37,167 nucleotides of DNA from Clostridia bacterium (lineage in GTDB: Bacteria; Bacillota; Clostridia; Christensenellales; Borkfalkiaceae), in contig JAFURH010000012.1 in assembly GCA_017471945.1 (NCBI GenBank), positions 1-37,167 on the forward strand, read 5' to 3'. Below, in pieces: positions 34,031 to 36,600 of the stretch. Both the position numbers and the translations under genes were made by a program. Below the pieces are notes generated by a model. It was given only the letters and a program-made list of their open reading frames with translations, ran no database searches and was not told the origin of the DNA. Position 1 is the stretch's first letter. The number at the start of each line of letters is the position of its first letter.

Positions 34031-35212
34031 ATGTCAATGAGGAAAAACGGTGTCAATAGAGAAATCCGCCCGATCGAGGGCGGAATATGCGCGCCGAAAG
34101 GCTTTCGAGCCAACGGCGTTTTGTGCGGGGTATCGATCGGGAACGATTTGGCGCTGATCGTCGCGGACGAGCGCTATCCGATTGCCTGTATCCGTTCGGA
34201 TAACGCGTTTGTTACGCCTTGCGGCAACCTTTTATCACAACGCTCCAAGGACGGAAAGGCTCGCGCCGTTTTTTTCAATACGGGTATCGCGAACGTCTGC
34301 GTGACGGGCGGAGAACGATTCGCGTCGGAAACGCGTTTAAGCCTTGCCCGCGAAATCGGGTGCGAAGCTTCGGACGTTTTACTTTTTTCCGCGGGCGAGG
34401 TTTGCGGTTCGTTTCCTTTGGATAAAATTAAAGAAAAGATAACCCCCCTCGTCTGCGGGTTGACGGATGGGGAATCGGGAAACGTCGCGGCGAAAGAAGG
34501 CGTTTGTCTCGGTCGCGCGGTCTCTTTTGCGTATGCATTTGAATTAGGCGATTTTTCGTGTAAGATCGGGGGGATTGCTTCCGTCGCACCTCGCTTGTCG
34601 GGCGGGGTGAACGCTTCTCTCGTCGCCTTGACGACGGACGTGAATATCACTCCCGAGTTATTGGAAAAAGCCTTTGATTCGGCGTATAAAGATACGTTCG
34701 GTTTGCTTGGACGCAGGGATTCGCCTTTCGACGGCGCGGTGATCTTTTCTTCCCAAAAGGCGGGTAACTGCAAAATTTCCGTAGCGGACGGAGAGTATAA
34801 AAAATTTTCGGACGCGCTTTTCAAAGTCTGCGAAAAAATCGCGAAAAGGCTTGCGGTCGGGGAAGGGGAACGGTTGATAGAATTTTGCGTTTGCGGCGCG
34901 CGATCCAAACAACTTTCCCGCGCGCTTGCGAAAAGCTTAGCCGATTGCTTCGCCGTGAAACGGGATTTTAAAGAAAACCCGCACCTTTCCGAACTCCTTT
35001 CCGCGCTTGGCGCGGCGAGACTTCCGATCGAGATAAAACGCGCTCAAATACGCTTATCCTCCGATTCGGGCGAACTGCTTATAATGGAAGAGGGCGCGGC
35101 GTTGCCGTATAATCTTTCTCAGTGCAAAAAGATTCTCGCCTCGTCGGAAATTTTCGTGCGGATCGATTTCGGACAAGGCAATTTTTCCTCTTGCTCTTGG
35201 GCTCGCGTTTAA
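34031..35212 (+). CDS. ArgJ-like protein lacking the catalytic motifs (probable pseudoenzyme)
   Basis: A 393-residue relative of the arginine-pathway glutamate N-acetyltransferase ArgJ. The fold is recognisable: APKGFRANGVLCGV near the start, ARAVFFNTGIANVC (78-90), GGIASVAPRLSGGVNASLVALTTD (180-203) and VGEGERLIEF. ArgJ self-cleaves at Ala-Thr in NMATML, and this Thr is the nucleophile; here the aligned residue is Ser196 in VNASLV. The oxyanion STG is SAG (120-122), the DGDTSTND-type motif is gone, and the protein stops where AWGCDLTxDY would begin. Base composition is normal and no frame is broken. There is no ribosome site, so translation is probably coupled to the thioesterase. Confidence 0.7.
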   Translation: MSMRKNGVNREIRPIEGGICAPKGFRANGVLCGVSIGNDLALIVADERYPIACIRSDNAFVTPCGNLLSQRSKDGKARAVFFNTGIANVCVTGGERFASETRLSLAREIGCEASDVLLFSAGEVCGSFPLDKIKEKITPLVCGLTDGESGNVAAKEGVCLGRAVSFAYAFELGDFSCKIGGIASVAPRLSGGVNASLVALTTDVNITPELLEKAFDSAYKDTFGLLGRRDSPFDGAVIFSSQKAGNCKISVADGEYKKFSDALFKVCEKIAKRLAVGEGERLIEFCVCGARSKQLSRALAKSLADCFAVKRDFKENPHLSELLSALGAARLPIEIKRAQIRLSSDSGELLIMEEGAALPYNLSQCKKILASSEIFVRIDFGQGNFSSCSWARV

Positions 35213-35262: not shown

Positions 35263-35291
35263 TTGACAAAGAAAAATCGTCGTGCTATAAT
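35263..35291 (+). promoter_or_regulatory. Perfect extended -10 promoter for a small ORF
   Basis: TTGACA (35263-35268), 17 bases, TATAAT (35286-35291) with TGC before it. It is the strongest-looking promoter in the window. Confidence 0.92.
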
Positions 35292-35315: not shown

Positions 35316-35459
35316 ATGTTGTTTCAGGAAAAGACGAAGAATTTAAAAGCGGAAGCAATGCAAAGCGGTGACCAAATGAAATCCATCGCCGACGTTTCCT
35401 CTTTTCTCTCCCTTTTTCCCTCGTCCGTTCAAGAATCATTTTCTAAAAAAGCCGACTGA
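35316..35459 (+). CDS. Free-standing 47-residue protein of unknown function
   Basis: The ORF reads MLFQEKTKNLKAEAMQSG at its start and ends PSSVQESFSKKAD. AGGTGA lies five bases before the ATG. A perfect promoter lies 25 bases before it and a perfect UUCG-loop terminator overlaps the stop codon, so the transcript carries this ORF alone. The N-terminal half is charged and helix-forming, the middle (ADVSSFLSLFPSSV) is hydrophobic-Ser and the end basic. There is no signal peptide or clear membrane helix. I do not recognise the family. A regulatory RNA that happens to contain an ORF is the alternative. Confidence 0.65.
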   Translation: MLFQEKTKNLKAEAMQSGDQMKSIADVSSFLSLFPSSVQESFSKKAD

Positions 35460-35484
35460 TTTTTCGAAATCAGTCTTATTTTTT
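35454..35484 (+). terminator. UUCG-loop terminator after the small ORF
   Basis: GACTGATTT (35454-35462) pairs perfectly with AAATCAGTC (35467-35475) around TTCG, then TTATTTTTT. The stem begins inside the last codons. Confidence 0.92.
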
Positions 35485-35535: not shown

Positions 35536-36600
35536 ATGAAAAAGACAAAAGTTTATCTGACGTTACAAAACGGAAAAGTATTTGAAGGCTACCGCTTCGG
35601 CGCAGACGGCGAAGCAGTGGGCGAACTCGTTTTTTCAACGGGTATGGTCGGCTATTTGAAAACGCTTACCGATCCCGCGTACTACGGGCAGATCGTGGTG
35701 CAGACGTTTCCGATGATCGGGAACTACGGCGTGATCGAATCGGAGTTCGACAGCGAAAAAACGCACCTCTCCGCGTATATCGTTCGCGAGTATTGCCAAG
35801 AGCCTTCTAATTTCCGCACCGAGCAAACGCTCGACGCGTTTATGAAAAAGGCAGGCGTGATCGGCGTATACGGCGTGGATACGCGCGAGCTGACGAGAAT
35901 TTTAAGGGAAGAGGGCGTAATGACCGCTTCGATCTCTTCAAAACCTTTAACCGACGATTATTCTATACTGCAAACTTACGAAGTGAAGAACGCCGTGGCG
36001 GCTCTTGGCGAAAAAGAGGTAAAAACGTACGGCGAAGGCGGCAAATACACCGTTGCGCTGTGGGATTTCGGCGTAAAGAACAGCTCGCTTAACGATTTGA
36101 CGGAAAAAGGATTTAAACTCGTGCGCGTTCCCGCAAGCTACACGGCGGAGCAGATCCTCGCCTTGCATACGGATGGCGTGATTTTGAGCGAAGGGCCGGG
36201 AGATCCTACGGAAAATACGGCGATTATTGAAGAAGTGAAAAAGCTTGTCGGCAAAATTCCCGTATTCGGGTTCGGGCTCGGGCATCAACTCGTCGCGCTC
36301 GCGCTCGGCGCAAAGACCGAGAAAATGAAATACGGTCACCGCGGCGGCAATCAACCCGTGAAATCCCTCGAAAACGGCAGAGTGTATATTTCGTCGCAAA
36401 ACCACGGCTACGTGGTAGACGGCGAAACGCTTAAAGAAGGCGCAATCGATTATATCAACGTAAACGACGGCTCTTGCGAGGGGATTTCCTATCCCGAGAA
36501 AAAGGCGTTTACCGTACAATTCGCGCCCGCGTCTATGAGCGCGGCGAACGAAAGCAACGTTTTATACAATAAGTTCATAACGATGATGGAAAAGGAGTAA
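35536..36600 (+). CDS. carA: Carbamoyl-phosphate synthase small subunit without glutaminase catalytic residues
   Basis: CarA normally hydrolyses glutamine and passes ammonia to CarB for arginine and pyrimidine synthesis. This 354-residue protein is full-length and clearly orthologous: TLQNGKVFEGYRFG, STGMVGYLKTLTDPAYYGQIVVQTFPMIGNYGV, GVYGVDTRELTRILRE and LSEGPGDP. However, the catalytic cysteine of GICLGHQ is Gly247 (GFGLGHQ), the histidine and glutamate of the QxHPE motif are Ala330 and Ala332 (QFAPAS), and GHHGxNHPV reads GHRGGNQPV. The whole Cys-His-Glu triad is absent. The frame is intact, AAAGGA precedes the ATG, and carB follows after six bases. Confidence 0.9.
   Translation: MKKTKVYLTLQNGKVFEGYRFGADGEAVGELVFSTGMVGYLKTLTDPAYYGQIVVQTFPMIGNYGVIESEFDSEKTHLSAYIVREYCQEPSNFRTEQTLDAFMKKAGVIGVYGVDTRELTRILREEGVMTASISSKPLTDDYSILQTYEVKNAVAALGEKEVKTYGEGGKYTVALWDFGVKNSSLNDLTEKGFKLVRVPASYTAEQILALHTDGVILSEGPGDPTENTAIIEEVKKLVGKIPVFGFGLGHQLVALALGAKTEKMKYGHRGGNQPVKSLENGRVYISSQNHGYVVDGETLKEGAIDYINVNDGSCEGISYPEKKAFTVQFAPASMSAANESNVLYNKFITMMEKE

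Follow-up and report, generated by a model that had tools for sequence, protein, structure and literature searches.

Recurrent loss of the glutaminase active site in the carbamoyl-phosphate synthase of a family of uncultured Clostridia, and its probable turn to ammonia

The small subunit of carbamoyl-phosphate synthase (CPS), CarA, encoded in the window, which is the whole 37,167-nucleotide stretch of Clostridia DNA analysed here, lacks the Cys-His-Glu triad of the class I glutamine amidotransferases (GATases). In agreement with what a sequence-only reading of this DNA had claimed, Gly247, Ala330 and Ala332 occupy the columns of Cys269, His353 and Glu355 of E. coli K-12 CarA, the reference for residue numbering (Table 1). 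The loss recurs in relatives, most of which seem to have also dropped the use of glutamine in two other nucleotide-making steps. This enzyme is probably an ammonia-dependent CPS in which CarA serves as a structural subunit, and it would be part of a wider move away from glutamine in the synthesis of nucleotides.

Table 1. Features located in the window, with their positions and strand.
Feature	Positions	Strand	Remark
Second, divergent ArgJ-like protein, neighbour of dead carA	34031..35212	+	NMAT motif gone in window copy
Sigma-70-type promoter match (TTGACA, 17, TATAAT)	35263..35291	+	12/12, TG before second hexamer
Intrinsic-terminator-like hairpin and T run, between promoter match and carA	35454..35475	+	consensus match only
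carA, small subunit of carbamoyl-phosphate synthase	35536..36600	+	354 aa, glutaminase triad absent
Ala48, column of E. coli Ser47	35677..35679	+	E. coli CarA alignment and window sequence
Glu219, column of E. coli Asn240, LSNGPGD loop	36190..36192	+	E. coli CarA alignment
Gly247 (GGG), column of nucleophile Cys269	36274..36276	+	E. coli CarA alignment
Ala330 (GCG), column of catalytic His353	36523..36525	+	E. coli CarA alignment
Ala332 (GCG), column of Glu355	36529..36531	+	E. coli CarA alignment
carB, first 187 aa, ended by contig end	36607..37167	+	CarB::DapF fusion of about 1350 aa in relatives

The protein scores 393.5 bits against the NCBIfam profile TIGR01368 (cut-off 307.35) and 402.4 bits against the profile PRK12838 (cut-off 221). 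Pfam recognizes the CPSase_sm_chain and GATase domains, the fold being assigned by profile match, and the sequence matches in the PDB are E. coli CarA first and then human CPS1 (5dot). Beyond the replacements listed by the sequence-only reading, two more are present, of Asn240 by Glu219 and of Ser47 by Ala48. That reading also counted two histidines of the segment GHRGGNQPV as lost, which does not hold, as Arg and Gln are usual there in relatives with an intact triad: the first column is Arg in nearly all intact relatives, and 59 of 68 intact family sequences have Gln where E. coli has His295. The window makes up contig 34 of its genome (2.04 Mb in 94 contigs), presumably a metagenome-assembled genome (MAG), and the search for a second carA that had been proposed found none in this 79%-complete assembly (CarA count of one). 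A sequencing or assembly error, or the decay of a single gene, was ruled out, since many relatives carry a CarA without the Cys; with 50 such sequences in the family, the loss of the triad is not a matter of chance or of sequencing error.

Alignment of CarA in the relatives reveals that the loss is clade-wide. Dead sequences are defined here by the loss of the Cys. Among the 48 genomes with a CarA match in the genus group (57 genomes), the CarA is exclusively Cys-less in 40 and exclusively intact in 6, and 2 hold both kinds. The family sample comprises 151 genomes; 92 of them gave a match, in some cases one of the GuaA type. The 50 dead sequences of the family consist of 45 of at least 330 aa and five fragments; the fragment of G071 has a stop codon within its CarA match. 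The Cys column of the 50 holds Gly in 44, Asp in 3, Ser in 2 and Glu in 1, and among the 48 dead sequences that are readable there, the His is kept in 4 and the Glu in 31. In all 69 intact sequences, the columns of Asn240 and of the triad hold Asn, Cys, His and Glu. The counts omit two CarA fragments of G117 (both with the Cys; this genome has PyrG), L125, where the active site is not covered, L131, L133, and second copies of stretches that had been counted before.

The type-1 dead CarAs of the genus of at least 330 aa form one clade of 36 sequences (support of 100/98). In the two mixed genomes, the second CarA may be foreign: that of G114 groups with a Lachnospiraceae CarA (98/75) and lies on an 8.7-kb contig where the sole PyrG of this genome is also encoded, and that of G080 belongs to a second, distant CarA type. 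The Cys is also lost in other genera (G129 and G027 in g9, G073 in g7, G022 in g4, G032 in g16 and G005, G051 and G023 in g5), and the CarA of G175, a genome from the genus group, is a dead one of type 2. On the CarB tree, G129, G027 and G073 are placed among intact species of their own genera. For G022, CarA appears as sister to the dead clade when the active-site columns are included (99/96) and joins its own genus when they are removed, and its cut CarB has no firm place among the dead and intact sequences of the genus group. The dead state requires 8 changes on the CarA tree built without active-site columns (113 sequences, SH-aLRT only) and 6 on the CarB tree (90 sequences, G175 being absent). 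Taking both trees and the unsure position of G022 together, about six to eight independent losses of the glutaminase would have taken place in the family.

The type-2 dead CarAs are carried by genus g5 (G005, G023 and G051; L241, L247, L249 and L245). In G005, the contig that encodes PyrG also encodes an intact CarA; its two CPSs may divide the work between them. Beyond the family, where 33 loci were covered, the CarA of an Erysipelotrichaceae MAG (L073) retains HPE and carries Asp in place of the Cys, and that of a Ruminococcus MAG (L057) keeps the Cys and has Tyr for the His; both are possible losses outside the family.

Most of the genomes with a dead CarA show only a GuaA without its GATase, and in nearly all CTP synthase (PyrG) is missing, so ammonia or salvage would have to serve them. 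PyrG (PF06418) is found in 9 of the 57 genus genomes and in 90 of the 151 family genomes. A readable CarA state is available for 115 genomes (47 dead-only, 65 intact-only and 3 with both), and in these draft genomes, on which all absences of PyrG and GuaA rest, PyrG is absent from 45 of the 47 dead-only ones, G175 and G051 being the two that have it, and present in 61 of the 65 intact-only ones (the four without it, G146, G148, G125 and G078, are 56-89% complete). The three genomes with both kinds of CarA (G080, G114 and G005) all have PyrG. At a completeness of at least 90%, PyrG is absent in 14 of 14 dead-only genomes and present in 49 of 49 intact-only ones. Nor was PyrG found in many well-assembled genomes of the family, some of them without a CarA found (for instance G008 and G013).

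A similar comparison was made for GMP synthetase, with GuaA classed by open-frame length and 500 aa or more taken as full. Among the matches listed, GuaA is short only in 35 of the 47 dead-only genomes, our own included, full-length in 4 (G027, G051, G023 and G188, the last on a 4.4-kb contig), cut in 3 and missing in 4, and the GuaA match of one more, G022, lies outside those listed. For the 65 intact-only genomes, the matches listed give 57 full, 3 short only (G043, G146 and G078), 1 cut and 4 with none; G146 has one further match beyond those listed. Seven short GuaAs (from G000, the genome of the window, and G129, G073, G032, G002, G049 and G036) start just before the SGGVDSS loop and have no GATase. 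Our own, of 327 aa, runs from the ATPase onward and scores 434 bits against TIGR00884 (cut-off 339). No GATase partner for the short GuaA was detected by PF00117 in G000, G002, G036 and G049, where this profile matches only CarA, plus HisH in three of the four including G000. On one contig (G106:C17, locus L320), a full GMP synthetase with GATase (518 aa) and a GATase-less one (334 aa) are encoded in tandem. Given this tandem, the short GuaA looks like an older paralogue that was kept alone in lineages with a dead CarA.

After control for kinship, the link of dead CarA to the losses of PyrG and full-length GuaA is borderline, with few independent events available for either, and kinship weakens the one to PyrG. 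For PyrG, pairs on the CarA tree give 5.1 in the same direction, 0.2 opposite and 1.6 ties of 7 (median p of 0.0625), and those on the CarB tree 4.9, 0.0 and 1.1 of 6 (median p of 0.0625). For full-length GuaA, judged on the matches listed, the figures are 3.6, 0.0 and 2.4 of 6 (median p of 0.125).

The users of carbamoyl phosphate are still present. The genome of the window encodes ArgF and PyrB on separate contigs (ornithine and aspartate carbamoyltransferase by NCBIfam), and PF02729 has matches in 55 of the 57 genus genomes, 43 of them with two. ArgG passes its cut-off in 45 of the 57 genus genomes and in 34 of the 40 dead-only ones, and ArgJ in 33 of these 40, the canonical ArgJ of our own genome being a contig-end fragment only. 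A loss of arginine synthesis, considered as a general cause, was ruled out for most genomes by these ArgG and ArgJ counts and our own ArgF; the remaining few dead-only genomes may be without the arginine route, or incomplete. Also ruled out as a cause was the loss of glutamine synthetase, as matches to this family occur in 52 of the 57 genus genomes. HisH keeps GICLGMQ and QFHPE in the three genomes where it was found, two of the three proteins being named by NCBIfam (TIGR01855), so the use of glutamine has not been abolished everywhere. From these gene contents, glutamine is probably still made and used in these bacteria.

Other positions of CarA changed along with the Cys. The Asn240 column of the LSNGPGD loop, a residue presumably placed by the oxyanion hole, holds Asp in 37 of the 50 dead sequences, Glu in 8, Gly in 3, Ala in 1 and Asn in 1. 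An acidic residue is thus found there in 45 of 50 dead and in none of 69 intact sequences, which have Asn in 69 of 69. Over independent pairs, any loss of Asn240 goes with the loss of the Cys in 6, against it in 0 and ties in 1 (p of 0.031). Ser47 is Ser in 67 of 68 intact sequences versus 15 of 45 dead ones, and Tyr48 is Tyr in 66 of 68 versus 12 of 45. In the loop from Gly359 to Asp362, where the alignment is less sure, the Gly359 column is Gly in 67 of 68 intact sequences and mostly Ile, Ala or Asp in the dead ones, Pro360 is kept in 68 of 68 versus 3 of 45 and Asp362 in 67 of 68 versus 3 of 45. We take Gly359 to lie by the ammonia tunnel and, together with Pro360, to line what was formerly its wall. 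Among the 45 dead sequences, Gly241 is retained in 45, Gly243 in 43, Gln351 and Pro354 in 45, Asn311 in 44 and His312 in 45.

Ten dead pairs, picked for closeness, have dN of 0.11-0.19 and dS of 0.98-2.53 over the GATase domain, that is, a dN/dS of about 0.06-0.16, a rough value given a dS of 1.0-2.5. The ratio of dN in the GATase domain to that in the N-domain is 0.71-2.02 in these pairs, the range for ten intact pairs being 0.62-1.49. Measured against CarB, dead CarA has about double the rate of intact CarA in the N-domain (4.53 versus 2.27) and 2.5 times its rate in the GATase domain taken without active-site columns (6.05 versus 2.37), in 404 dead and 132 intact pairs with a CarB distance of 0.03-0.14 (the medians differ, being 0.062 for dead and 0.098 for intact pairs). 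Relaxation is therefore part of the story. As judged from the low dN/dS and the faster rate, dead CarA is under purifying selection, relaxed but real.

The dead glutaminase is seen in the window itself, and the synthetase half is judged only on the CarB of relatives because the window CarB is cut by the contig end. For the same reason, of the operon described as intact in the sequence-only reading only the adjacency of carA and the start of carB stands on the window, where six bases separate the carA stop codon from the carB start; intactness beyond the 187 aa is drawn from relatives. Over this length, the window CarB shares 97% identity with that of L091. The comparison covered 39 CarBs accompanying dead CarA and 49 accompanying intact CarA, each of at least 900 aa, over columns listed for the catalytic halves, the tunnels and the gate. 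Neither set varies at 12 of 14 listed columns in the bicarbonate (N) half, 12 of 14 in the carbamate (C) half, 12 of 21 in the ammonia tunnel with its gate, and 8 of 9 in the carbamate tunnel. These invariant columns include all the listed catalytic Arg, Glu and Asn, E217, C232, S305-S312 and K358. Only four listed columns, V284, V250, V355 and I359, have a different most frequent residue in the two sets, and each of these changes is conservative. Over the whole CarB, 8 columns separate the two sets by the threshold used, V355 included, and all of these changes are mild, so CarB changes were rejected as a marker of ammonia use. No change known to raise the affinity for ammonia is found among the columns that separate the 39 from the 49. 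Thus, the look at the CarB tunnel proposed beforehand finds the catalytic residues of the relatives kept, with conservative shifts at V250, V355 and I359.

In the relatives, CarB is C-terminally fused to a diaminopimelate epimerase (DapF) domain, reaching about 1350 aa, as supported by profile matches run on L098:2935-6993 (-) and L103:5076-9134 (+). Of the 62 family copies of the fused DapF that were scored (29 with dead and 33 with intact CarA), none retains the first catalytic Cys and 59 retain the second. In other MAGs (L050-L053), a CarB of the same length keeps the first Cys of its fused DapF. Upstream, carA may have its own promoter: three consensus matches occur in the stretch where 0.8 would be expected, consensus being their sole basis. 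The hairpin before carA, one of two terminator-like matches (same place, one per strand) where 0.6 would be expected, is a possible attenuator. As for known RNA leaders upstream of carA, Rfam gave one sub-threshold match, on the opposite strand.

At 32 loci, that of the window among them, dead carA is preceded by a divergent second ArgJ, which scores under the TIGR00120 cut-off and lies about 300-460 bp upstream in the relatives; most genomes that have it carry a canonical ArgJ elsewhere. In the NMAT motif, 26 of the 32 copies retain the pair A-T (or S-T), which those of the window, L084, L095, L098, L115 and L118 do not. ArgJ is able to make N-acetylglutamate (NAG), the activator of CPS I, and this neighbour is only suggestive of a link between NAG and CarAB.

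In the explanation that we favour, CarA would be a retired glutaminase retained as the structural partner or scaffold of CarB. CarAB would take ammonia straight from the cytoplasm, and CarB would convert it, with bicarbonate and two ATP, to carbamoyl phosphate for ornithine transcarbamoylase (arginine) and aspartate transcarbamoylase (pyrimidines). This would be one part of a wider retreat from glutamine, with ammonia used for carbamoyl phosphate and GMP and salvage for cytosine compounds, and an ammonia-rich niche such as gut contents would be the cause. The sequence-only reading had proposed ammonia use with a structural or regulatory CarA, and the clade-wide loss, the single carA and the CarB residues kept make this the best-supported interpretation, although its comparison with CPS I is too simple. 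According to the accessible text of a review, glutamine hydrolysis in E. coli requires both Cys269 and His353, and ammonia replaces glutamine there only at very high levels (PMC6245113); this, and the lack of an affinity-raising change among the separating columns of CarB, weakens the ammonia explanation. Blocking or perforating the tunnel of the E. coli enzyme leaves variants that are still active with external ammonia (PMC4655335, accessible text). Moreover, a Plasmodium GMP synthetase double mutant without the catalytic Cys has a 6.7-fold lower Km for NH4Cl (PMC9312489, accessible text), which suggests that losing the nucleophile need not hurt the use of ammonia.

The dead glutamine pocket could even have become an ammonium port, where an acidic pocket would capture NH4+ and feed NH3 to CarB in an evolved ammonia-specific CPS, as part of the same retreat from glutamine. 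The association of the Cys loss with Asp or Glu at Asn240, and the replacement of the Cys mostly by Gly, speak for this, but Gly359 and Pro360 are mostly lost, so ammonia may enter elsewhere, and we consider the port unlikely. An improbable alternative is that CarAB is decaying, with carbamoyl phosphate coming from elsewhere (e.g. carbamate kinase or citrulline breakdown) and CarB surviving for the fused DapF. The faster evolution of dead CarA, the loss of those same two residues and the neighbouring ArgJ-like protein without the NMAT motif in its window copy would fit such a decay, and the fused DapF would be a reason to retain the open frame. However, the listed catalytic columns of CarB are kept in the 39 relatives with dead CarA, dN/dS in dead CarA is well under 1, and DapF, having lost its first Cys in every copy scored, is a weak reason for keeping CarB.

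It is quite improbable that glutamine is still the nitrogen source, hydrolysed by another glutaminase that hands the ammonia to CarAB or to the cytoplasm. Glutamine would exist in these cells, as indicated by the glutamine synthetase matches and a HisH that looks intact; yet PF00117 offers no candidate besides CarA and HisH in the four genomes searched, and a free cytoplasmic glutaminase would leave CarAB dependent on ammonia anyway. DON, azaserine and acivicin are glutamine antimetabolites that alkylate the GATase Cys, and exposure to such compounds might have selected for shedding class I GATases in some lineages. Several GATases were indeed lost together, and Glu355 is kept in 31 of the 48 readable dead sequences, though these are defined by Cys loss; against this, HisH keeps its Cys in three genomes, and to our knowledge no producer or exposure is known. 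We regard this selection as very improbable; moreover, it would explain why the Cys went and not how the enzyme works, and is compatible with the use of ammonia.

The proposed ammonia use with a retained, dead CarA has its closest known counterpart in vertebrate CPS1, which keeps a dead glutaminase-like domain and uses ammonia. In the accessible text of PMC4655335, Ser replaces the Cys in CPS1, alterations may also affect the glutamine site and the former ammonia tunnel, and ammonia is suggested to enter by another path; the loss of G359 and P360 in most dead CarAs may be compared with this alteration. CPS1 is a single chain with NAG as essential activator (PMC4655335). In contrast, here carA and carB are separate genes, the losses are bacterial and repeated, the nucleophile is mostly replaced by Gly and the His is mostly gone. 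With E. coli CarAB the enzyme shares the two subunits, the carA-carB order and, in relatives, the listed catalytic residues of CarB; it differs in the replacement of Cys269, His353, Glu355, Asn240 and Ser47 in the window CarA and in the DapF-like domain at the C-terminus of the relatives' CarB.

Another bacterial amidating enzyme, single-domain NadE, works in vivo on free ammonia with no glutaminase and is judged ancestral (PMC3376133, accessible text); it has no glutaminase domain at all, whereas here the subunit is kept but dead. Table 1 of that paper gives carAB for 600 genomes, guaA for 730 and pyrG for 800, with no glutaminase-less form of any of them in the text accessible; the survey is taken to have counted genes and not catalytic residues. 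In bacteria a single chain carries both domains of GMP synthetase, which in archaea are separate subunits (PMC9312489); the short GuaA of this clade matches TIGR00884 as the two-domain enzyme does, but without the GATase domain. A review names glutamine as the nitrogen source of E. coli CPS under physiological conditions and extends this to all bacterial CPSs (PMC6245113). While a dead glutaminase on vertebrate CPS I is known, no report of a bacterial CPS with a dead glutaminase, of a GATase-less bacterial GuaA, of a joint loss of GATases or of a CarB-DapF fusion appeared among the papers listed by the literature searches, which covered mostly journals outside subscription.

Finally, these uncultured bacteria, kin of animal-gut ones, have kept CarAB with its glutamine-using half broken. 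The glutaminase was naturally lost about six to eight times in one family in which intact relatives can serve as controls, so that carbamoyl-phosphate synthesis sustained by ammonia becomes directly testable in living bacteria. Given the link to the loss of PyrG and to the GATase-less GuaA, these bacteria may have changed their nitrogen currency in a coordinated way, which predicts that the growth of these bacteria would depend on ammonia and cytosine compounds.
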